DNA of 64,000 bases from the NCBI RefSeq assembly GCF_002222635.1, contig NZ_CP022415.1, forward strand, positions 992,001 through 1,056,000, written 5' to 3'. The position numbers were made by a program, and so were the translations under genes. Source of the DNA: Pseudosulfitobacter pseudonitzschiae (GTDB lineage Bacteria > Pseudomonadota > Alphaproteobacteria > Rhodobacterales > Rhodobacteraceae). Within the stretch, counting starts at the first letter, position 1. Each line of letters begins with the position of its first letter. The notes beneath the pieces are model-generated. The model was not told the origin of the DNA, did not search any database, and worked only from the letters and a program-made list of their open reading frames with translations. Shown in pieces: positions 14,729 through 24,508 of this stretch.

Positions 14729-15157
14729 TCACAACCCTCCGGCCAGTAGGCGCAGACAGGCCACTGTGGCCACACCCGCACCGATATAGAACAGCGTGGC
14801 AACGATGCCCCGCACACTCAGCCGCGAGATACCGCAGACCCCGTGCCCCGACGTGCAGCCATTGGCCAGTCGCGTGCCCAGACCCACGGCCAGACCGCCC
14901 GCGATCAGCAGCACAGGCGATGCGGTGGCATTGGTCCTGACGGTGCCGGTGCCCAGATAGTGCAGCAGTGCAGGCGTTGCGATCAGGGCCGCGACAAAGA
15001 CGACGGCTTCGATCCAGCCACGTCCTGCGGTGCCATCCAGCAATCCGCCCAGAATACCCGAGGCGCCCATGATCCGCCCGTTGCCCAACAACAGGATAGA
15101 CGCGGCCGTGCCGATGATCAGCCCGCCGAACAGGCCCCAAAGCCAAGAGACTTCCAT
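14729..15157 (-). CDS. YeeE/YedE-family membrane protein, N-terminal half type (PmpA-like)
   Basis: 142 residues from the ATG at 15157, preceded by AAAGGAACC; an in-frame ATG at 15190 is less likely. It carries the first-half signature NGCTSGHGVCGISR with its conserved cysteines, plus a glycine-rich first segment (WGLFGGLIIGTAASILLLG). Together with the next gene it rebuilds a complete YeeE-type transporter from two polypeptides. The pair plus the DUF442 protein form a small sulfur-transfer unit ended by a strong terminator. Confidence 0.82.
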   Translation of the reverse strand: MEVSWLWGLFGGLIIGTAASILLLGNGRIMGASGILGGLLDGTAGRGWIEAVVFVAALIATPALLHYLGTGTVRTNATASPVLLIAGGLAVGLGTRLANGCTSGHGVCGISRLSVRGIVATLFYIGAGVATVACLRLLAGGL

Positions 15158-15173
15158 AGTGGTTCCTTTGCAT

Positions 15174-15248
15174 TCAACCCATGAAGACATGCAGCAGCAG
15201 TGTCGTCAGACCCGCAGCAAGCAAGGCAGTCAGCCATTGGGAAAGCAT
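15174..15248 (-). CDS. Possible 24-residue hydrophobic small protein upstream of the YeeE pair
   Basis: A minus-strand frame from ATG 15248 to TGA 15174 encodes MLSQWLTALLAAGLTTLLLH plus VFMG, a single predicted membrane helix. It ends 16 bp before the PmpA-like start, with that gene's ribosome-binding site in the gap. No strong ribosome-binding site is seen for the small frame itself; an inverted repeat lies directly upstream. Hydrophobic composition and position make it plausible, but its length allows chance. Confidence 0.3.
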   Translation of the reverse strand: MLSQWLTALLAAGLTTLLLHVFMG

Positions 15249-15249
15249 A

Positions 15250-15272
15250 TGAACAACGCGGTGTGTTGTTCA
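15250..15272. repeat. Perfect inverted repeat upstream of the YeeE pair
   Basis: TGAACAAC (15250-15257) and GTTGTTCA (15265-15272) are perfect arms around a 7-bp spacer, about 95 bp before the PmpA-like start and just past the stop of the small membrane protein at 15284. It could be an operator or a T-tract-less terminator hairpin. Confidence 0.45.
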
Positions 15273-15283
15273 AGCGTTGGGTG

Positions 15284-15526
15284 TCAGCCGAGGAAAATAC
15301 CCAGCATCACCAGCATCAGCCCAAAGGCCGAAACGAACAACGCACCAAGGTTCATCGGCACTACGCTTTTCAACACGGCGCGCATCGCCTCGTCGTCCAG
15401 TTTCGCCCGCTTGGCGCGCGTCACGCGGATGATGCACCACACCAGCCCCAAAAGGCCGACAAGCGAGATTGCCGCACCGGCCCAGATGAGCAGGTCGAAA
15501 ATCGGGAATGAGGTCTGTTCTATCAT
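15284..15526 (-). CDS. Small membrane protein, unknown function
   Basis: 80 residues with two clear membrane segments (about residues 10-32 and 55-78) separated by a basic cytoplasmic loop (IIRVTRAKRAKLDDEAMR). I do not recognise a named family; proteins of this shape are common hypothetical proteins in Rhodobacteraceae. It lies 36 bp after tonB on the same strand and could be the last gene of the corrinoid operon, or a separate unit. Codon usage matches its neighbours. Confidence 0.6.
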   Translation of the reverse strand: MIEQTSFPIFDLLIWAGAAISLVGLLGLVWCIIRVTRAKRAKLDDEAMRAVLKSVVPMNLGALFVSAFGLMLVMLGIFLG

Positions 15527-15562
15527 GCGCCTGCGCTACTGCATTGCCGCGCGCAGGGCAAG

Positions 15563-16552
15563 TCAGCCGTTGAAATCCAGCGCGATGGTAAAGGTGTAGG
15601 CCGGTTTGGTCAGCCCCTTTGGCGCGCGGGCAAAGCGGCGGGCGCGTTTGACGGCTGACAATGCGGCCTGATCAAGTGTGGCATTGCCCGAAGATGCCAC
15701 CACGCGCACCGATTGCAACACGCCAGACGGGGCGATGGACAGGGCCAGTTTGGTGCGCCCCGCGCCTGCGCCGTGCGGAGACGTGGCGTTGCGGCGCACT
15801 TTGGACTGGATCGCGGCGCCCCATTGGGCCTGCAATGCGTTGGCGCGGGCGGCTGACACGCTTTGCGTCTGCGCAGCGCCGCCGGTGCCTGCGGTGGCGG
15901 ATGCGTGTGCGGTGCCTTTGGCGGTGGATTTGGCCTGCGGCACCGAGGCAGTGGTTTTGGGCTTTGGTTTTGGCGCAGGCTTTGCTTTGGCAGCCGGGGC
16001 CAGTTCACGCGGGCGCAGCACGGGGCGTTTCGATGTGCTGTCAGGTGTGGTCTGGTCCATCTGCGGCAGGGTGGGCGGCGGGGTGACAGCAGCCAGTTGC
16101 TGCGGCGCTGCTGGCGCGGGGCGCGTGTCTGTTTGCCGGTGTGGTGCGTCTTGGTCTGCGACTTCGGGCTGCGTTGGTTGCGCCACTTCGGTTTGGGGCC
16201 GGACGGGTGGCGTCGGGTCCGGTTTTGCGGGCAAGACGGGCGCAGTCATGTCGAACTGCGGGGCGTTCGGCAGGGCCGCGGTCATGGTCGGTGCCTCTGC
16301 CGTCGGGCGGGGCGGGGCGGTTTCGACAGGAGTTTCCACTCGGGGCATGGCAATGTCGGTGACAGTCTCGGGCGGTGTTTCCCACGCCTGCGCCAGTGCC
16401 GCCATCGCGGCCGATGCCGGTGCCACCGTTGCCGCTTCAGTGCCTTGATCCCCTGCGGATGACGCGCCATGGGGCGCAGGCACAACAGCCCAAAGGCCCA
16501 CATGCGCGCTGGCGGCCACAGACAGGAACACGGCGGCTTCGATCAGGCGCAT
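15563..16552 (-). CDS. tonB: TonB-family energy transducer
   Basis: 329 residues. An N-terminal membrane anchor (LIEAAVFLSVAASAHVGLWA) is followed by a long Pro/Ala/Thr-rich periplasmic spacer (roughly 40-230) and a C-terminal TonB domain (about 245-329, with LQSVRVVASSGNATLDQAA and KRARRFARAPKG). TonB passes inner-membrane proton-motive force to outer-membrane receptors. Its start overlaps the exbD stop (TGATG). As the last gene of a btu operon it is presumably dedicated to the BtuB receptor encoded at the operon's head. Confidence 0.88.
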   Translation of the reverse strand: MRLIEAAVFLSVAASAHVGLWAVVPAPHGASSAGDQGTEAATVAPASAAMAALAQAWETPPETVTDIAMPRVETPVETAPPRPTAEAPTMTAALPNAPQFDMTAPVLPAKPDPTPPVRPQTEVAQPTQPEVADQDAPHRQTDTRPAPAAPQQLAAVTPPPTLPQMDQTTPDSTSKRPVLRPRELAPAAKAKPAPKPKPKTTASVPQAKSTAKGTAHASATAGTGGAAQTQSVSAARANALQAQWGAAIQSKVRRNATSPHGAGAGRTKLALSIAPSGVLQSVRVVASSGNATLDQAALSAVKRARRFARAPKGLTKPAYTFTIALDFNG

Positions 16553-16938
16553 CAGTTTGCCCCCGTAATCAGTTCGACACCCGCAACGCCTGCCGCCGCC
16601 AGACGTGGCAACAGTGCGGTCAGCTTGGCGGCAGGCAGGGTGGCATCGGCGCGCAGGGACAAAACGCCATCATGACCGGACAGCGCTGCCAGTGCCGCAT
16701 CGCCGGTCACGCCGCTATAGGCCAGCGTGCCATCCGCCCCGACATAAAGTGCGTTCGGGTCCATTGGCGCCGCGTCTGCGGTACTGTCGGGCACGGTCAC
16801 CTCGATGGGATCGGGCGGGGCGATCTGGGCGCTCATCAGGAAAAAGATCAGCAGCAGGAAAACCACGTTGATCATCGGCACGATGTTTTCGGCGGTGTGT
16901 CTGGGGGGCGTTGCGGGCGAGAAATCCATAGCGTTCAT
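16552..16938 (-). CDS. exbD: ExbD-like protein with Asn at the essential Asp position
   Basis: 128 residues: a short cytoplasmic N-terminus, one membrane helix (MINVVFLLLIFFLMSA) and a periplasmic ExbD/TolR domain. In ExbD and TolR the helix begins with a conserved proton-carrying Asp (P-x-I-D-V); here that position is Asn24 (codon AAC). The preceding ExbD has the normal Asp. The start overlaps its stop (ATGA). The two probably form a mixed ExbD dimer inside an ExbB pentamer, with only one protonatable residue. Confidence 0.85.
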   Translation of the reverse strand: MNAMDFSPATPPRHTAENIVPMINVVFLLLIFFLMSAQIAPPDPIEVTVPDSTADAAPMDPNALYVGADGTLAYSGVTGDAALAALSGHDGVLSLRADATLPAAKLTALLPRLAAAGVAGVELITGAN

Positions 16939-17306
16939 TCCACCACGATCAGCCGTGTCAGGCCCGCAGCACGCAGATCGTCCAATATGCGCACCAGATC
17001 CTGCACCGTGGCCGCGCCCCGTGCGCGCAGCAAAACAGCATCGTCGGGGCCGGACATCAACGGGGCAAGGGCGGCTGCCAGATCGCTGACTGCCACGCCG
17101 TTCAGCGCCACGCCGCCTGCATCAATGTCCACCAGACGCGGCGGACCTGCATAGGCCGCACCGCTGCCCGCCGTCTGCAACGGCAGGGCAAAGTCGGTGC
17201 CGAACCGCGCGGCCAGCATAAAGAACACCAGCAGCAGAAACACCACGTCGATCATCGGCGTGAGGCTTGGCCTGCGGGCGGGCCGTATGGAGCCAAAGCT
17301 GAACAT
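16935..17306 (-). CDS. exbD: ExbD biopolymer transport protein (canonical)
   Basis: 123 residues with the standard ExbD build: N-terminal basic segment, helix MIDVVFLLLVFFMLAARFG with the essential Asp at D20, and a periplasmic domain. It works with ExbB to harvest proton-motive force for TonB. The start overlaps the exbB stop (TGATG), and its own stop overlaps the second exbD start, so all three motor genes are translationally coupled. Confidence 0.88.
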   Translation of the reverse strand: MFSFGSIRPARRPSLTPMIDVVFLLLVFFMLAARFGTDFALPLQTAGSGAAYAGPPRLVDIDAGGVALNGVAVSDLAAALAPLMSGPDDAVLLRARGAATVQDLVRILDDLRAAGLTRLIVVE

Positions 17307-17941
17307 CAGGGTGCCTTTGGTCCTCGGGTAAAGACGCGGGTGGCGGCGGTTTCCATGTCACCCTGAAGCCGTGCGGCGATGCTTTCGAACCATGTCAGTG
17401 CCACCCCTGCGGGGATCGCTACGGCCATCCCTGCGGCGGTGGTCAGCAGCGCCTCCCAGATGCCACCGGCAAGGGCTGCGGGATCGGCGCGGCTGCCTGC
17501 CTCTTGCAGCGCCTGAAACGCGTCGATCATGCCCACAACGGTGCCCAGCAGCCCCAGCAGCGGCGCGGTGGTGGCAATCAGTTCCAGCGCCCGCAGACCG
17601 CTTCGGGTTCGGGTCAGGTCAATGCGGGCATGGGCTGTGGTTTCCTCGCGGGCTTGCGCCTCGGTCAATGCCGGATCGTGACGTGCGGTCATCGCGGCCA
17701 GCGCCATACGGGCGCGGATGGATCGCCTGCCTTGCAACTTGGCGCGCGCCGCATCCACATCGCCCTGTGCCCAGTTCTCCAATGCCGCAGTTGTGGCCGC
17801 ACCCGACCACGCACCCAACCGCGCCAGTTGCCACAGTTTCCACAAAATCAGCGCCATCGTCAGCACCGACAGCGCCGCAATCAGCCACAGCACGGGGCCG
17901 CCGCGTTCCAGAAAGGCGATCAATGAGGGCGGCAATATCAT
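17306..17941 (-). CDS. exbB: MotA/TolQ/ExbB-family proton channel protein
   Basis: 211 residues from the ATG at 17941, which overlaps the stop of the upstream gene (ATGA); an ATG 15 bp earlier would overlap more. Three membrane segments are visible: residues about 15-35, then the conserved pair LIATTAPLLGLLGTVVGMID and GIWEALLTTAAGMAVAIPAG. These are the hallmarks of ExbB/TolQ, which forms the pentameric channel around the ExbD helices. No TolA/Pal genes are nearby; the context assigns it to TonB. Confidence 0.88.
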   Translation of the reverse strand: MILPPSLIAFLERGGPVLWLIAALSVLTMALILWKLWQLARLGAWSGAATTAALENWAQGDVDAARAKLQGRRSIRARMALAAMTARHDPALTEAQAREETTAHARIDLTRTRSGLRALELIATTAPLLGLLGTVVGMIDAFQALQEAGSRADPAALAGGIWEALLTTAAGMAVAIPAGVALTWFESIAARLQGDMETAATRVFTRGPKAP

Positions 17942-18720
17942 GGTGTATCTCCCCACAGGGCGGTCAGAATAGCATCAAGCCCGTCGGTCAGTGCCGCTGG
18001 GCCAGGTTGCAGGATCAGCGGCGATTTGATTTCGATAATGCGGCCTTGGGCCACGGCGGGGACGCTGTCCCAGCCGGGGCGGGCTGCGATCCGCTCAGAG
18101 CGCACCTTTTTGCCGCACCACGAGGCGATGATAACATCAGGCGCGGCGTCAATCACCTGTTGTGGGTCCAGAATACGCGCCCGCGCGCCCTGTTCGGCTT
18201 GCAGACGGGCAAACACATCCACACCGCCCGCAATCTCGATCAGCTCGGATGCCCAGCGGATGCCGGAAATGGGCGGATCGTCCCATTCTTCGAAGTAGAC
18301 GCGCGGTCGGGACGGACGCGGGGTATTGCGGATGGTCTCGATACGGGCGGCATAGCTGTCGGCCAGTGCATCGGCCTGCGCCGCGCAGCCCGTCAGCGCG
18401 CCAAGCGTGCGAATCATCTCAAGAATGCCCGCGACCGAACGCTGGTTGAACCCGTGTACCGTGATGCCTGCGCGGATCAGATCGGCGGCAATGTCGGCTT
18501 GCAGGTCAGAAAACGTCAGCACCAGATCGGGCTGCAATTCCAGTATCTTGGGCACATCTGCGGATGTAAACGCCCCCACGCGCGGCTTTTCGCGGCGCAC
18601 CTGTTCGGGCCGCACGGCATAGCCGGTGACGCCAACAATACGGTCCGATTGGCCCAGCAGATAAAGCGTCTCGACCGTTTCTTCGGTCAGGCAAACGATG
18701 CGTTCGTAGGGAAAGGCCAT
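17938..18720 (-). CDS. BtuF-like cobalamin-binding protein without signal peptide
   Basis: 260 residues from ATG 18720. It has the class III binding-protein fold used by BtuF: ERIVCLTEETVETLYLLGQ, an RPEQVRREKPRVGAF segment and KILELQPDLVLTFSDLQ. Unlike the periplasmic BtuF encoded earlier in the operon, it begins directly at the first strand with no signal sequence, so it should stay in the cytoplasm. Similar signal-less proteins are annotated as cobalamin-binding proteins in alphaproteobacteria but their role is unclear. It starts at the stop of cbiZ (TGATG) and overlaps exbB, so it is coupled to both. Confidence 0.75.
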   Translation of the reverse strand: MAFPYERIVCLTEETVETLYLLGQSDRIVGVTGYAVRPEQVRREKPRVGAFTSADVPKILELQPDLVLTFSDLQADIAADLIRAGITVHGFNQRSVAGILEMIRTLGALTGCAAQADALADSYAARIETIRNTPRPSRPRVYFEEWDDPPISGIRWASELIEIAGGVDVFARLQAEQGARARILDPQQVIDAAPDVIIASWCGKKVRSERIAARPGWDSVPAVAQGRIIEIKSPLILQPGPAALTDGLDAILTALWGDTP

Positions 18721-19379
18721 CACAGCACCTCCGCTCTGCGCACGGTCTGCATCCAAGTTTGAGCGCCCTCCAGCACGGCGGTGTAGACGGCGCGGCCCAC
18801 CGCCTCGCCCAGATCGGTGTGCATGCCTGCAAAGGCGACATCGCCCCGCGGAGCCGCAACCGCGATGCAGTCGGTTCCGGTGCCGGTGGCGCGCCCCGTG
18901 GGCAGCTGGTGGTTGACCTGCATAACCGCCACTGTACGGGCTTGGGCCGCGATTGCCATCATCTCGATCAATGCGGGCTGTGCCAGCGCCAGACCGGTCT
19001 GCACTGCGACGTTGATGGTGCCCCAATCCTTGCCCGAACGGTCCGCCCGCGTGCCGATATGTTCGGCGTTCGACAGGCCCACAGTGGCCACGGCACGCGC
19101 AGTGGCGGTGCCTGCGGTCGTGGTGTGTTCGGTCACGGCGCGGATGTCGCGCGAGGTCAGAAAGCAGACGTCTTGCGGGGTGCCGCGCGCGGCCAGCTGG
19201 TCGGTCAGCCAGTCCGGCACATCCAGTTCCGGTGTCAGATCGGCGTTGCGCACCTCGCGCCACGAGATTGCATCGGCGGTGACAAAGCCGGGACGGTTCA
19301 GCGCCCAGCTGAGCACCTGATGCGGGCCACCCAGATCAAAGCGCAGCCAAGGACGCTCGAGAATCAGCGGCGCGGTCAT
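18720..19379 (-). CDS. cbiZ: Adenosylcobinamide amidohydrolase
   Basis: 219 residues, CbiZ family. The enzyme removes the aminopropanol side chain of adenosylcobinamide (and in Rhodobacter of adenosylpseudocobalamin) to give adenosylcobyric acid, so that foreign corrinoids can be rebuilt with the cell's own lower ligand. Visible family blocks are TVGLSNAEHIG, GTINVAVQTGLALAQPALIE and ATGTGTDCIAVAAP. The start overlaps the btuD stop (ATGA at 19379-19376). Being joined to a corrinoid importer under a B12 riboswitch fits the salvage role well. Confidence 0.88.
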   Translation of the reverse strand: MTAPLILERPWLRFDLGGPHQVLSWALNRPGFVTADAISWREVRNADLTPELDVPDWLTDQLAARGTPQDVCFLTSRDIRAVTEHTTTAGTATARAVATVGLSNAEHIGTRADRSGKDWGTINVAVQTGLALAQPALIEMMAIAAQARTVAVMQVNHQLPTGRATGTGTDCIAVAAPRGDVAFAGMHTDLGEAVGRAVYTAVLEGAQTWMQTVRRAEVL

Positions 19380-20122
19380 TCCAGCGTGTCCAATGTCTGG
19401 AACACGGGGCCGCGGTCGGTCATCTCGTAGTGTGCAAGAATGCCGAAGACCTGCGCGAGGTTCGCGGGGGTCATCACCTCGACGGGTGGGCCATCCGCGA
19501 CGATGCCGCCATTGTGCAACAGGATCACGCGGGTGCAATGGCGCGCAGCAAGGCCAAGATCGTGCAACGAGGTCAGCACCGTGCGCCCCGATGCCGCCAG
19601 CGCGGAAAACACCCGCATGGTGGCAATCTGTGCCGCCGGATCAAGGCCTGCAATGGGTTCGTCCGCCATCATCAGCGGCGTATCCTGTGCCAGTGCGCGG
19701 GCGATCAGCACGCGGGCCTGTTCGCCACCCGACAGTTGCGTCGCGGTGCGCTGCGCATAGTTTTCCAGCCCCATCTGCACCAGCGCGTCCGCAACGGCGG
19801 CGGCGTTCTCGGTCTTGGTGCCGGAATGGGGCAGGCGGCCCAGAAGCACCAGCTTTTCCACGCTCACGGGCCATGCGATTTCGCGGGCTTGCGGCAGCCA
19901 TGCACAGGCGCGGGCCCGCTCCATGCTGGTCATTTGCGCCAGCGACGACGTGCCCTGGTGTGGCAGCAGGCCAAGGGCCGCGCGCATCAGGGTGGTTTTA
20001 CCAGCGCCGTTGGGGCCCAGCAGGCCCACACATTCGCCCGGCTGCAGGGTCAGCGACACGGTGTCGATCACCGGACAGGCGCCGCGCTTGACCGACAGGT
20101 TTTGCAGGTTCAGCAGCGTCAT
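19376..20122 (-). CDS. btuD: Corrinoid ABC transporter ATP-binding protein
   Basis: 248 residues. Walker A GPNGAGKTTLMRAALG near residue 36, signature LSGGEQARVLIARAL, Walker B PLMMADEPIAGLDP and switch histidine in LTSLHDLGLAARH. The sequence matches the FecE/BtuD/HmuV group. Overlaps btuC (ATGA) and cbiZ (ATGA). The riboswitch, BtuB and CbiZ context assigns it to corrinoids rather than iron-siderophores or heme. Confidence 0.88.
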   Translation of the reverse strand: MTLLNLQNLSVKRGACPVIDTVSLTLQPGECVGLLGPNGAGKTTLMRAALGLLPHQGTSSLAQMTSMERARACAWLPQAREIAWPVSVEKLVLLGRLPHSGTKTENAAAVADALVQMGLENYAQRTATQLSGGEQARVLIARALAQDTPLMMADEPIAGLDPAAQIATMRVFSALAASGRTVLTSLHDLGLAARHCTRVILLHNGGIVADGPPVEVMTPANLAQVFGILAHYEMTDRGPVFQTLDTLE

Positions 20123-21099
20123 TGCAATGTCCCCCGCGTTTTATAGATCAGGTGCAGGAACAGCGGCGCGCCGACCAGTGCCATCAGCACGCCCAGCTTC
20201 AGGTCGCGGTCGGGCAGGGCCACACGCACAGCGATGTCTGCCGCCAGCACCATCGCCGCTCCACCCAGCGCCGAGGCCCACAGCAGCCGCGACGGTTGTC
20301 CGCCCACGAAGGGGCGCAACACATGCGGGACCACTAGGCCGACAAAGCCGATGGACCCTGCCACAGCCGTGCCTGCCCCGACGCAAGCCGCAGTGCCAAT
20401 GACCAGCGCCAGCCGCAAGCGCGACAGGCGCACGCCCATCGCGGCGGCGGCATCTTCGCCCAGCGTCAGCGCATCTAGCCCGCGCCCAAGCGATCCCAGC
20501 AGCACCCAGCCCAACACCATGAACGGCAGGGCCAGCCATACGTGGGAAAAGGACCGGTCGGCCAGCGAACCCAGCATCCAGAACACGATTTCGGCGGCGG
20601 CAAAGGGGTTGGGCGACAGGTTCAACACCAGCGAGGTAAAGGCCGAAGCCAGCGCCGAAATAGCGATACCAGCAAGGATCAGCGTCAGCGCCGCCCCGCG
20701 CGGCCCCGCCAGCGTCAGGATCATCGCCACCGCGATCAGTGCTGCCAGCAGCGCAGACAGCGGCAGGGCCAGCGCAAAGGCAGCCGCCAGTCCGGTTTGC
20801 AATGCCAGCACCGCACCAAGTCCAGCCGCCGCCGACACGCCGATCAGTCCCGGCTCGGCCAGCGGGTTGCGCAGATAACCCTGCATCGCGGCCCCCGACA
20901 CGCCCAGCGACGCGCCGATCATCACCGCCAGCAGGGCGCGGGGCAGGCGGATTTGCTGCATCACCACGCTCATCGGGCTGCCGTCGGTGGCGAACAGGCT
21001 GGCTAAGGAATGCCAGACCGACACCGGCGTGGTGCCGGTGACCAGCGAGACCACGAACAGCACCGTACACAGGGTTGTCAGGATGGCAGTCAGCTTCAT
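20119..21099 (-). CDS. btuC: Corrinoid ABC transporter permease
   Basis: 326 residues, FecCD/BtuC family with about nine or ten membrane segments. Typical blocks are RLPRALLAVMIGASLGVSGA near residue 50, GYLRNPLAEPGLIGVSAAAG, and the C-terminal SIGFVGLVVPHVLRPFVGGQ. Forms the membrane channel with BtuD. Its start overlaps the btuF stop and its stop overlaps the btuD start. Confidence 0.9.
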   Translation of the reverse strand: MKLTAILTTLCTVLFVVSLVTGTTPVSVWHSLASLFATDGSPMSVVMQQIRLPRALLAVMIGASLGVSGAAMQGYLRNPLAEPGLIGVSAAAGLGAVLALQTGLAAAFALALPLSALLAALIAVAMILTLAGPRGAALTLILAGIAISALASAFTSLVLNLSPNPFAAAEIVFWMLGSLADRSFSHVWLALPFMVLGWVLLGSLGRGLDALTLGEDAAAAMGVRLSRLRLALVIGTAACVGAGTAVAGSIGFVGLVVPHVLRPFVGGQPSRLLWASALGGAAMVLAADIAVRVALPDRDLKLGVLMALVGAPLFLHLIYKTRGTLQ

Positions 21100-21932
21100 T
21101 GGCGGGCCTCGACCTGTTTGCGCAGGTCCACCATAGTGCGCACAGCGTTCAGCACGGTCGGCGTGCCGCAGACCCAGTCGCGGTCGGTCAACTCGCCCGC
21201 CATATAGGTGCCTTTCAGCGATGACAGGGCGGGGTGATCAAGATTGTCTTCGGCGCGCGCGGCACCGGGATAGTTGCGGCCCTGAATAATGACATCGGGG
21301 GCCAGCAACACCAGTTGCTCCAGCGGCAGCACCCCGACCGACCCAAGGCCTGCCTCTTCGGCGACATTGTCGAAACCGGCGGCATAGAGCACGTCACCGG
21401 CCAGCGAATGGCGGCCCGAGGAGTAATTGTTCACATAGGTCAGCGCCGCGCGTGGGCGGTGCGCAGGGGCCACGGACAGGGCCGCTAACTCGGCATTGAA
21501 ATGGTTGATCATCGCGCGGGCCTCGGCTTCGCGGCCCAGGGCCTCGCCCATTTGCGCCAGACGCTCGGGCACATCGGACAGCGCACGGGCAGGGGCGAAT
21601 TGCACCACTTCGATGCCCAGATTGCGCAGCATGGAAATCGTGGCCATCGAGGTAAAGGTGCCCGCCAGCACCAGATCGGGTTTGAGCAGATAGACTTCTT
21701 CGGCGCCTGACCCGTTGGCGGGCAGGGCGCGGGCCTGTTCGCCCATCACCGAATCTGTATCCTCGTGCGACAGCCGCGTGACCGACACCAATTGTCCGGG
21801 GGATGCCAGCAACAGCGCCAGTTGATCGGTGCACAGGTTGATCGACACCACCCGTTGCGGGGTGCCGGCCAAGGCGGTTGCGGCGCTGAACAGCAGCGCC
21901 GCAACCGATGTTATCAGATCAGAACGACGCAC
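21096..21932 (-). CDS. btuF: Periplasmic corrinoid-binding protein (BtuF-type)
   Basis: About 278 residues from a GTG at 21932; an ATG at 21968 lies deep inside btuB and is less likely. The start gives a plausible signal peptide (basic RRSDLITS, then AALLFSAATALAG). The mature protein has the class III fold: RVVSINLCTDQLALLLASPG, KPDLVLAGTFTSMA and LAPDVIIQGRNYPGAA. It captures corrinoid released by BtuB and hands it to BtuC/BtuD. Overlaps btuB by 14 bp and btuC by 4 bp, so it is translated by coupling; no separate ribosome-binding site is evident. Confidence 0.82.
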   Translation of the reverse strand: MRRSDLITSVAALLFSAATALAGTPQRVVSINLCTDQLALLLASPGQLVSVTRLSHEDTDSVMGEQARALPANGSGAEEVYLLKPDLVLAGTFTSMATISMLRNLGIEVVQFAPARALSDVPERLAQMGEALGREAEARAMINHFNAELAALSVAPAHRPRAALTYVNNYSSGRHSLAGDVLYAAGFDNVAEEAGLGSVGVLPLEQLVLLAPDVIIQGRNYPGAARAEDNLDHPALSSLKGTYMAGELTDRDWVCGTPTVLNAVRTMVDLRKQVEARQ

Positions 21933-23757
21933 GGACGCCAAAGTACACAGCACGGTCCGAAGTGCCATAGCCGAGTGAGGTCTGGTATTGCTCGTTGGTC
22001 AGGTTCTCCAGACGCATGTATCCTTGGGTGGTGTCGCTGAAATCATAGGTCGCCGAGGCGTTGATCACGGTGTAGTCAGCCATCGGGACCGGCGTTGCGG
22101 GGAATGTGCTAAAATCGCTTTCATTGGCGCGACCCGCGACGTGGTTCACCACCAACTGGCCCGACAATTTGTCAGTCAGATCGGCCTCGACCCCCAGAAC
22201 AAAGTCATGCTTGGGCACGCGGACAAGTTGGGCGCCGTTGGCGCCTGTGGCGTCGGTAAAGGTGTAGGACCCGAACAGATCGGTCCCCGCACCCAGTGCA
22301 ACCCGGCCCGACAGTTCGACCCCTTTGGATGTCGAGGTGCCCGGAACCTGAGTATAACCGGCGCCCGCGAAATCGATCAGGTTGTCGATCTCGGTGTAAA
22401 AGACCGTTGCCTTGACCACGGCGTTGTTGACAAAACGGTGTTCGACGCCGAATTCGGCGCTGCGGCTTTCTTCTTGTTCCAGCGTAGGGCTTCCGAAGGG
22501 GCCAAACAGTTCATACAGCGATGGCGCGCGGAAACCCGTCCCGATGGCCGCACGCAATGTGGTGTTTGCGGAGACGCGCCAGTTCGCCGCCAGCCGGCCG
22601 GTTGTGAATCCGCCAAAGGTCGAATGGTCATCGTGGCGCAGCGCAAAGCTGAGGTCGATGTCATTGGACACGGCATATTGCGCCTCGCCAAAGACCGAGG
22701 CGATCCGGTAGGTGCCGGTCACTGCGTCGGCTGCGAATTTTTCTTCGGAATAGCTGGCACCAAAGGCCAGATCGACCGCACCCGCCTGCGTGACGCCCTT
22801 GTACGAAAGCTCGGTGCGTTCGCCGCTGAATGCGTTGGTGGTACCGACGGGGTAATCGCGGTTGATCTCGGAATAGGCCAGCGACAGGGTGTGATCGACT
22901 GCACCTGACTCGATCTCGGCATAGATCCGTGCCCCCAAGCGGGTGGCAAATTCCTGATTTGCTGTATCAGTCAGAGTAAAGGCGGGCGCCGGAAAACCGT
23001 CCTGATCGGTTTCGCTGTCGATATAATTCAGCGCAAAGCCCAGCTTCACCTGTTCGGTCGCCTGATAGGCCCCCGTCAGGATCAGCGTTGTGCCCTTGTA
23101 TCCGTCTGCTTCGGTATTGCCGTCGTTTTCATCTGCGGCTGAAAATCCGTCGGTGCTGACATGGCTGATGGTAAAGGCCAGTTCGCCGCGATCTGATTTG
23201 GTTGCCACGCCAAAGCTGCTGGCAAAGGTGTTATAGCTGCCTGCCTCGAAGTTGTAGCGCAACTGTGTGCCGTTCTCCGTCGCGCGCAGGGTCGAGATAT
23301 TGATGACCCCGCCAATCGCTTCGGAGCCGTAAAGCGCCGATTGGGACCCTTTCAACACTTCGATGCTGCCGATGCCTGCAGTGGTGAGTGGCCCGAAACC
23401 AAAGGAGGTTTGCGTGCCGGAGGGGTCTGTCATATCGATGCCGTCGATATATACGGGTACATAGCGCGCAGGCAGCCCGCGAATGCGCAATGTCGACGCG
23501 GTGCCCAAACCGCCGTTGCCTGACAGCGAAATGCCCGGCAGTGTGTCCAGCGTATCGGCCACGCGAATACTTGTGCTGTTCTCGATCGTCTCCTGATCGA
23601 CAATCTCGACCACGGTGCCGGTGCGCGAAGTCTCGACCGGCGTCTGGCTGGCCGATACCGTGATGGTGCCCAGATCAAAAGCATCGTCTTGGGCGATTGC
23701 GGCGCGTGGCAGGGTGGCCAGTGCCAGTACGGATGCCGAAGCAAGCAGGTGTTTCAT
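21919..23757 (-). CDS. btuB: TonB-dependent corrinoid receptor
   Basis: 612 residues, the length of E. coli BtuB. A Sec signal peptide (to about AIAQ) is followed by a TonB box (DLGTITVSASQTP), a plug domain with TLRIRGLPARYVPVYIDGID and GSIEVLKGSQSALYGSEAIG, and a beta-barrel ending in aromatic Phe (YFGVRASF). It imports cobalamin-type corrinoids through the outer membrane using TonB. It is the first gene after a cobalamin riboswitch. A GGGGAC ribosome-binding stretch precedes the ATG. Confidence 0.9.
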   Translation of the reverse strand: MKHLLASASVLALATLPRAAIAQDDAFDLGTITVSASQTPVETSRTGTVVEIVDQETIENSTSIRVADTLDTLPGISLSGNGGLGTASTLRIRGLPARYVPVYIDGIDMTDPSGTQTSFGFGPLTTAGIGSIEVLKGSQSALYGSEAIGGVINISTLRATENGTQLRYNFEAGSYNTFASSFGVATKSDRGELAFTISHVSTDGFSAADENDGNTEADGYKGTTLILTGAYQATEQVKLGFALNYIDSETDQDGFPAPAFTLTDTANQEFATRLGARIYAEIESGAVDHTLSLAYSEINRDYPVGTTNAFSGERTELSYKGVTQAGAVDLAFGASYSEEKFAADAVTGTYRIASVFGEAQYAVSNDIDLSFALRHDDHSTFGGFTTGRLAANWRVSANTTLRAAIGTGFRAPSLYELFGPFGSPTLEQEESRSAEFGVEHRFVNNAVVKATVFYTEIDNLIDFAGAGYTQVPGTSTSKGVELSGRVALGAGTDLFGSYTFTDATGANGAQLVRVPKHDFVLGVEADLTDKLSGQLVVNHVAGRANESDFSTFPATPVPMADYTVINASATYDFSDTTQGYMRLENLTNEQYQTSLGYGTSDRAVYFGVRASF

Positions 23758-23851
23758 AAAAGTCGTGTCCCCTTACGGACGGGCCTGTTGCGGGCGGCCC
23801 TTGGTCGTCGGAATGGGAAAGGTTGAAGCGCCTTCCGCCGGTGAAACGCCA

Positions 23852-23913
23852 CCAAAGCGGTCAGGCCGCCGACACGCACGCCCCCCGCGTTCGTATCCGG
23901 GTGATCGCTTTGG
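23852..23913 (-). promoter_or_regulatory. Candidate riboswitch expression-platform stem
   Basis: CCAAAGCG (23852-23859) is perfectly complementary to CGCTTTGG (23906-23913). The latter overlaps the 3' edge of the B12 box, so this stem would compete with closure of the aptamer. No T run follows it, so action by another route, or by a further structure nearer the ATG, would be needed. Confidence 0.4.
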
Positions 23914-24085
23914 CAGGTCTCCTGACTTGCGGGTCGATGCGGGGCCGTGCCTTCCCGAGGGTGACCCCCCAGTGGCATATGACGGTCGCGCTCACCGCTT
24001 ACAGTTGCGGGGGCAGTCACGGATTTGGGGATGGTTTCCCGCACCGCGTTCCCTTTAACGACGGGTTACCCCGCCGAACCAAAGT
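23912..24085 (-). promoter_or_regulatory. Cobalamin riboswitch upstream of btuB
   Basis: On the minus strand the conserved elements appear in order: GGTTCGGCGGGGTAACCC, AAAGGGAACGCGGTG, CCGCAACTGTAAGCGGTG, then ATGCCACTGG, GGGAAGGC and the terminal B12 box AAGTCAGGAGACCTGCC (about 23911-23927). These are the hallmark blocks of the adenosylcobalamin aptamer. It lies about 155 bp before the btuB start, so B12 should repress the whole ten-gene operon. Boundaries are approximate. Confidence 0.95.
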
Positions 24086-24244
24086 AGGGGTGGCTTAGCC
24101 TGTGCATCGCTGCCGATCAAGACGCGAAAACGACCTTGCGGCAGAGTGGTGCGTCAAAGTTGTCTTGCAGGCGGCAAGTCGGGACGATAACGGTTGGGTC
24201 TTGCCAGACAAGCCCCGATTGGCCCCGAATGAAGGACGCGCCCC

Positions 24245-24508
24245 ATGACCGACACTGCCACCAACCCCGACAGCTACCGCGTAACAGCAGACGAACTGCG
24301 CCAGTTCATCGAGCGGATCGAACGTCTGGACGCCGAGAAAAAAGATATTGCCGAGCAGCAAAAAGAGGTGATGGCCGAAGCCAAAGGGCGCGGTTACGAC
24401 ACCAAGGTGATCCGCAAGGTCATCGCCCTGCGCAAGCGCGAGCCTGACGACATTGCCGAAGAAGAAGCGGTTCTTGAGATGTACAAAGAAGCGCTGGGAA
24501 TGTCCTGA
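24245..24508 (+). CDS. gapR: GapR-family nucleoid-associated protein (DUF2312)
   Basis: 87 residues, almost identical in layout to Caulobacter GapR: a long charged helix (ADELRQFIERIERLDAEKKD) followed by EVMAEAKGRGYDTKVIRKVI and LRKREPDDIAEEEAVLEMY. GapR dimers or tetramers clamp overtwisted, AT-rich DNA and help topoisomerases during replication and transcription. It is a stand-alone gene, divergent from the cobalamin operon and convergent with cysG. Confidence 0.92.
   Translation: MTDTATNPDSYRVTADELRQFIERIERLDAEKKDIAEQQKEVMAEAKGRGYDTKVIRKVIALRKREPDDIAEEEAVLEMYKEALGMS

Follow-up and report, generated by a model that had tools for sequence, protein, structure and literature searches.

The window analysed here is a 64,000-nucleotide stretch of Pseudosulfitobacter pseudonitzschiae DNA (positions 992,001 to 1,056,000 of contig NZ_CP022415.1), which contains a vitamin B12 (cobalamin) operon that carries genes for a Ton motor. 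A cobalamin riboswitch, scoring above the Rfam gathering threshold of 31.5 bits, precedes ten open reading frames (ORFs) on the minus strand, and the expected Pfam family was found for each of them (Table 1). An earlier note on this DNA had proposed the riboswitch and the gene order btuB-btuF-btuC-btuD-cbiZ-btuF2-exbB-exbD1-exbD2-tonB, and the Rfam and Pfam matches bore out both. The nine joins from btuB to tonB all overlap, by 14, 4, 4, 4, 1, 4, 1, 4 and 1 bp in the junction sequences, as had been claimed (14 bp at btuB-btuF and 1–4 bp otherwise). The proposed extent, 15563–24085, was correct at the tonB end, but the riboswitch reaches 24098. The adjacent ExbB, ExbD (PF02472 twice) and TonB domains form a Ton motor set.

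Table 1 Position and supporting matches of the riboswitch and the ten genes behind it (window coordinates).
Feature	Position	Strand	Evidence
cobalamin riboswitch aptamer	23895..24098	-	RF00174, 123.8 bits, E 1.3e-30
btuB-like TonB-dependent receptor	21919..23757	-	PF00593 (barrel), PF07715 (TonB-dependent plug); TIGR01779 254.1 bits (below curated cut-off)
btuF (BtuF1), periplasmic binding protein, GTG start	21096..21932 (ORF opens 21968)	-	PF01497
btuC, ABC permease	20119..21099	-	PF01032, 267.7 bits
btuD, ABC ATPase	19376..20122	-	PF00005
cbiZ, adenosylcobinamide amidohydrolase	18720..19379	-	PF01955, 138 bits (cut-off 27)
btuF2, BtuF-like protein without signal peptide, probably cytoplasmic corrinoid binder	17938..18720	-	PF01497, 144.7 bits
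exbB	17306..17941	-	PF01618
exbD1, transmembrane Asp present (PMIDVVF)	16935..17306	-	PF02472; aligned to E. coli ExbD Asp25
exbD2, Asn at the transmembrane Asp site (PMINVVF)	16552..16938	-	PF02472; aligned to E. coli ExbD Asp25
tonB	15563..16552	-	PF13103, PF03544

Alignment of 63 ExbD pairs with E. coli ExbD (26 from B12 loci, 2 from near a B12 operon, 27 from other loci, 5 of the heme type and 3 from plasmids; locus L114 yielded no pair) revealed that the two proteins differ at the position of Asp25: ExbD1 had Asp in 63/63 and ExbD2 had Asn in 62/63. Two further plasmid pairs were also Asp/Asn, and the TolR of the window genome itself retains Asp. The exception, an Asp/Asp pair (L136), counts against the mixed-dimer reading given below. 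In a quick tree built from few columns, the ExbD2 proteins formed one group that included the heme type (SH-aLRT, an approximate likelihood-ratio branch support, 98), which suggests that the Asp-to-Asn change probably predates the split of the motor types. ExbD1 and ExbD2 form an ancient pair whose members are not equivalent. Separately, a Qingshengfaniella plasmid (L249:3934-6820) carries an exbB-exbD-exbD-DUF4384 set without tonB, and both of its ExbDs have Asp.

The known Ton motor holds two ExbD helices inside an ExbB pentamer, with Asp25 adjoining Thr148 and Thr181 (PMC6778125; this and the other sources given by PMC number are cited for their available passages). The equivalents of both threonines were kept in 61/61 aligned ExbBs, and Glu176 was kept in 52/61, being absent from the heme type. 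According to PMC11658791, it is unknown by what mechanism Asp25 protonation makes the Ton motor rotate. The Asp/Asn split suggests a heterodimeric motor, and a mixed ExbD1–ExbD2 dimer with a single proton site is the most likely reading of the alignment. Alternatively, ExbD1 and ExbD2 could sit in separate complexes, the Asn-carrying ExbD2 acting as an assembly factor or a brake rather than as a subunit of a mixed dimer; this is possible, if somewhat doubtful. It would agree with the fact that ExbD(D25N) is a named inactive mutant in E. coli (PMC11658791), whereas each locus has one exbB for two exbD genes in a fixed order, the paralogue pair stands together in 60/61 ExbB loci, and the known motor takes up two ExbD helices per pentamer. 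The mixed dimer also has a wider form, on which we are evenly divided: the Ton motors of Rhodobacterales, whether in B12, siderophore-type or heme-type loci, would be obligate Asp/Asn ExbD heterodimers and thus natural one-site 5:2 motors, one of which B12 starvation would induce together with a cytoplasmic corrinoid-receiving protein.

To place the operon among its relatives, we used one genome per genus from 120 genera of the family, and examined the surroundings of CbiZ in 22 genomes besides that of the window as well as the regions of 40 ExbB matches (among the matches listed, the 37 closest to the window's ExbB by identity and 3 less alike). CbiZ was present in 23/120 genomes, that of the window included. 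Profiles made from the window's own proteins served to map the genes, and riboswitches were located by a motif search, which recovers 5/5 known loci and the window, followed by Rfam. A riboswitch, btu genes and exbB-exbD-exbD-tonB occurred together in at least 18/120 genera, a lower bound because regions were examined for the chosen ExbB matches only. Nine of these operons contained cbiZ (the window, L084, L089, L090, L091, L092, L093, L098 and L100) and nine did not (L104, L105, L107, L116, L118, L120, L125, L132 and L138). Rfam confirmed the riboswitch in 16/16 motor-operon loci tested. Contig ends cut five of the 18, leaving a 39-residue piece of ExbB only in L090 (genome G119), no operon start in L116 (G098), and a missing or partial tonB in L104, L107 and L125. 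The earlier note had called B12 control of the motor unusual; as a one-off it is not, and TonB under such control unique to the window was rejected as a possibility.

The motor genes most plausibly belong to the same riboswitch-controlled transcription unit as the btu genes, as proposed before. We scanned positions 14900–24300 for consensus promoter-like and terminator-like sites and compared the counts with those in shuffled sequence. The one promoter-like site (shuffles, 1.5) lies within btuF2 and is at chance level; the ten terminator-like sites (shuffles, 6.7; standard deviation, 2.6) are no clear excess, and none of them falls on a gene junction or within the btuB leader. Hence the scan found no terminator at the joins that would separate exbB-exbD-exbD-tonB from the btu genes, nor a promoter better than chance. 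Several observations count against a single unit of this kind. Two of the ten hairpins are on the operon strand, in btuB (22219–22206) and exbB (17877–17849), both within translated sequence; a visible expression platform had to be rejected, since the leader after the aptamer folds like shuffled sequence (z 0.18); and 14 of the 23 genomes with CbiZ (the window genome counted) have no motor directly behind cbiZ, although in two of the 14 (L085 and L087) the motor is some kilobases away. An 80-codon ORF of membrane-like sequence (window 15284–15526), which matched nothing in Pfam or NCBIfam, begins 36 bp after tonB, and therefore the operon may run on into it. On the other side, a divergent GapR-like gene (24245–24508; 85.2 bits against an NCBIfam cut-off of 140) lies beside the riboswitch.

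The history of the motor was followed in a tree of 61 ExbB rows, in which the relatives with family names were Roseobacteraceae and Paracoccaceae. For the ExbB and ExbD trees, loci were labelled B12 by riboswitch or btu context (by btuF2 alone for L170), heme if their ExbB resembled the L018 type, and other for the remainder, only some of which have siderophore-type neighbours. The heme-type ExbBs formed a separate clade. The B12 label required seven changes on the ExbB tree, at least three of them being forced by well supported branches, compared with a shuffled mean of 19.9, and B12 motors as one clade were rejected. These changes indicate that gain, loss or exchange of the module between B12 operons and loci of other kinds, one of them an annotated Leisingera siderophore locus, happened on more than one occasion.

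Such a history would suit motor genes that have a promoter of their own and serve all TonB-dependent receptors, their place behind cbiZ-btuF2 being gene packing only. The same motor type occurs in other loci, one annotated for siderophore uptake, B12 motors are intermixed with these on the ExbB tree, and the genome has seven plug-domain receptors for only two TonB_C genes. We nevertheless regard this as unlikely, given that every join overlaps, that the lone promoter-like site is no better than chance and that the linkage of B12 genes and motor recurs in at least 18/120 genera. With the motor genes inside the riboswitch unit, control of tonB by B12 and translational coupling across the joins are predicted.

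The operon is also found on mobile DNA. The conjugative plasmid pP92_a of Phaeobacter inhibens (NZ_CP010611) carries riboswitch (139.3 bits)-btuB-F-C-D-cbiZ-DUF6925-exbB-exbD-exbD-tonB, and ExbB is present in nine Phaeobacter plasmid records; the plasmid copy shows that the operon can move. Two loci, L092 (10238-11278) and the pP92_a locus L243 (7988-8986), have the DUF6925 gene (PF21973, >415 bits) between cbiZ and exbB, where the window has btuF2. The pP92_a cbiZ (L243:7335-8024) is probably broken in this record because it is split over two reading frames.

Several association tables were tried by Fisher tests that ignore relatedness and multiple testing. BluB was found in 2/18 motor-operon genera and 44/102 others (p 0.009), and in 2/15 against 41/93 in the 108 better genomes (p 0.025), which is suggestive only of an association between motor operons and missing BluB. 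CbiZ occurred in 9/18 motor genera and 14/102 others (p 0.001), and btuF2 anywhere in the genome in 8/18 and 8/102 (p 0.0003). No link was found between CbiZ and BluB in the 120 genera (p 1). Absence of a PF02514 match went with CbiZ (p 0.01) and showed no link with the motor operon (p 0.48) in the same genera; PF02514 was rejected as a family-wide marker of B12 synthesis, since the name covers magnesium chelatase too, and only the CobN of the window genome was used.

The second BtuF-like gene, btuF2, had been taken for a further uptake part, a role that does not fit a protein without a signal peptide that is probably cytoplasmic. btuF2 was present in 16/120 genera. From 587 stretches confirmed as relatives, the best 80 were taken, 79 after one fell out at the motif step, and the N-terminus was tested by simple hydropathy of the largest possible N-terminal extension, with BtuF1 proteins as controls. 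A hydrophobic extension was seen in 2/79 BtuF2 relatives, and so was absent from 77/79, compared with 28/29 BtuF1 proteins; in 31 of the 79 the extension was shorter than 11 residues, and in six members of the family the start lies five or six residues ahead of the motif RIVCLTEE. Glu72 and Glu202, the BtuC-docking residues of BtuF, were both retained in 13/13 BtuF1 proteins aligned with E. coli BtuF. The equivalent of Glu72 was Pro in 21/21 aligned BtuF2 proteins and, by motif, Pro in 72, Ala in 2 and Leu in 1 of the 75 matched, never Glu; that of Glu202 was Gln, Asp or Glu. The Trp66/Glu72 pattern missed 4/79 (letters read by eye, Pro and Phe) and the Trp85 pattern 7/79. The pocket positions Tyr50, Trp66 and Trp85 were Tyr, Phe and Phe in 21/21 aligned BtuF2 proteins and non-aromatic in BtuF1; Trp66 features in PDB entries of mutants with bound cobinamide. 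Because BtuF2 has no signal peptide, has lost the docking Glu72 and has kept the pocket aromatics, it probably resides in the cytoplasm and binds corrinoid there, taking over what has been imported.

The AlphaFold2 (AF2) model of BtuF2 has the BtuF fold (pLDDT, the model's confidence score, 87.9), with Foldseek template-modelling (TM) scores of 0.77 to Vibrio cholerae BtuF and 0.74 to E. coli BtuF. Within the best 80, relatives were numerous in Bradyrhizobium and Methylobacterium, and 2/3 plasmid matches were annotated as cobalamin-binding protein. In seven loci (L162, L164, L187, L199, L208, L215 and L222) no btu gene was found between the riboswitch and btuF2, and the riboswitch, about 130 to 650 bases upstream, was confirmed by Rfam in 7/7 tested. 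Two sets of results speak against a dedicated corrinoid binder in the cytoplasm. First, the best Foldseek match of the model was an iron-binding-type protein (TM 0.84), and the best PDB matches, by Foldseek and by profile, include iron- and heme-binding proteins beside BtuF; because of these matches, the ligand could be heme or another tetrapyrrole. Second, btuF2 was the sole BtuF-like gene found beside btuC-btuD in six loci, four from Marivita or Marivita-like genomes (L144, L145, L148 and L160) and two from Boseongicola (L163 and L188, with tonB after btuF2 and no exbB match); no btuB or btuF1 match was found in these six stretches, a layout that favours transport. BtuF2 might accordingly be the binding protein of BtuCD, exported by a non-standard route or working on the transporter from its inner side. 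We consider this quite improbable in view of the missing hydrophobic N-terminus and the lost docking residue, and also of the btuF2 loci titled Bradyrhizobium or Methylobacterium, in whose fetched stretches there was no BtuC-type match. For a cytoplasmic BtuF-like protein no description was found in the literature searched, as judged by titles and abstracts.

The BtuB name rests mainly on context because the receptor scored 254.1 bits against the TIGR01779 equivalog cut-off of 599.7; this counts against calling it a certified equivalog, and B12-receptor-like is the better term. Import of a different chelate, such as a siderophore or heme, by this receptor and operon is very improbable: besides that low score, the Phaeobacter receptor carries a siderophore transport Gene Ontology term and adjoins a gene annotated as iron ABC transporter permease, but the cobalamin riboswitch, cbiZ and the B12-receptor (TIGR01779) and B12-permease models, which are the best NCBIfam matches of BtuB and BtuC, all stand against it. 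CbiZ is predicted to hydrolyse cobinamide or pseudocobalamin, and the remodelling of corrinoids that the earlier note drew from its presence fits that reported for Rhodobacter sphaeroides (PMC7733943). Its description of the operon as self-contained was too strong, as remodelling requires cob genes elsewhere and no BluB above the cut-off was found.

The host genome, which spans 5.12 Mb over 8 contigs and has a listed completeness of 100%, has five cobalamin riboswitches. By position and family matches, four of them precede the B12 operon, nrdEF, a weakly cbiM-like gene followed by cobF, and a cobW-cobN corrin cluster. The nrdEF riboswitch (C2:288695-288886, L019) stands before the genes of a class Ib, B12-independent ribonucleotide reductase, with nrdH and nrdI, read by eye, ahead of nrdEF and a MetH-type gene nearby on the other strand. 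The riboswitch targets read as a coherent B12-starvation regulon. A strong riboswitch at C1:1999192-1999388 (L020; 122.3 bits) has an ApbC/Mrp-like gene about 1.2 kb downstream. Because CobT and a cob cluster are present and BluB was not found above its cut-off in this genome (best 41 against 150 bits), the cell probably makes the corrin ring and may lack synthesis of dimethylbenzimidazole. The genome contains three ExbB/TolQ-family genes, two TonB_C genes and seven receptors with a plug domain. The motor genes are indeed in the operon, but its motor is not the cell's only one: a second TonB system is in a heme-type locus, whose receptor had a heme-receptor model as its best match, below the cut-off.

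Taken together, we think it likely that the locus is one B12-starvation operon for corrinoid uptake and salvage with its own motor, an ExbD heterodimer and a cytoplasmic BtuF2. When adenosylcobalamin is scarce, the riboswitch would permit expression of btuB and, through translational coupling at the overlapping joins, of the nine genes that follow. BtuB would move corrinoids over the outer membrane, powered by the ExbB-ExbD1-ExbD2-TonB motor of the operon, and BtuF1 and BtuCD would bring them into the cytoplasm, where BtuF2 would bind the incoming corrinoid. CbiZ would then hydrolyse cobinamide or unsuitable cobamides to cobyric acid, to be rebuilt by cob genes elsewhere. The motor itself would be of a lineage-specific type whose ExbD dimer probably pairs a subunit that carries protons (Asp) with one that does not (Asn), and B12 operons would have acquired the module more than once, its source being a motor type common to other loci, some of them siderophore-type.

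A lineage-kept Asp/Asn pair that bears a substitution inactive in E. coli ExbD (PMC11658791) makes the question of one proton site or two testable in nature. A cytoplasmic BtuF-like protein under a B12 riboswitch would point to a step, as yet uncharacterised, in how corrinoids are handled once imported, and the operon suggests that Ton energisation can become dedicated to a substrate. No description of a Ton motor inside a cobalamin-riboswitch operon was found in the literature searched, in the passages available, and earlier B12-regulon studies may mention one.

In E. coli, a cobalamin riboswitch acts on btuB and the import route is BtuB-BtuFCD, as here. Unlike in the window operon, exbB-exbD of E. 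coli is far from btuF and a single exbD lies beside exbB. Gray and Escalante-Semerena reportedly described the CbiZ remodelling of R. sphaeroides in 2009; beyond the remodelling step of that system, the window operon holds the genes of a Ton motor and a BtuF-like gene that lacks a signal peptide. CbiZ starts cobamide remodelling in R. sphaeroides (PMC7733943), many bacteria have cbiZ next to genes for B12 transport (PMC8620254), and transport genes preceded by a cobalamin riboswitch are known (PMC3766115). The tonB1-exbB1-exbD1-exbD2 operon of Sphingobium SYK-6 likewise has one exbB, two exbD genes and tonB, but both of its ExbDs keep Asp25 and the available passages describe no link to B12 (PMC8599685). 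In the B12 regulon of Caldithrix abyssi, a riboswitch similarly stands on an operon with btuB and btuF and TonB-ExbB-ExbD is assumed for uptake, whereas the passages available do not describe motor genes within a riboswitch operon (PMC5317091). Plasmid pP92_a of P. inhibens is alike in gene order and in its Asp/Asn ExbD pair; it differs in being plasmid-borne, in its two-frame cbiZ, in DUF6925 instead of btuF2 and in its partial annotation as iron/siderophore transport. Thus CbiZ remodelling, cbiZ beside B12 transporters and the riboswitch on transport genes are already known, and the points worth following are the ExbD split and the signal-less BtuF2.

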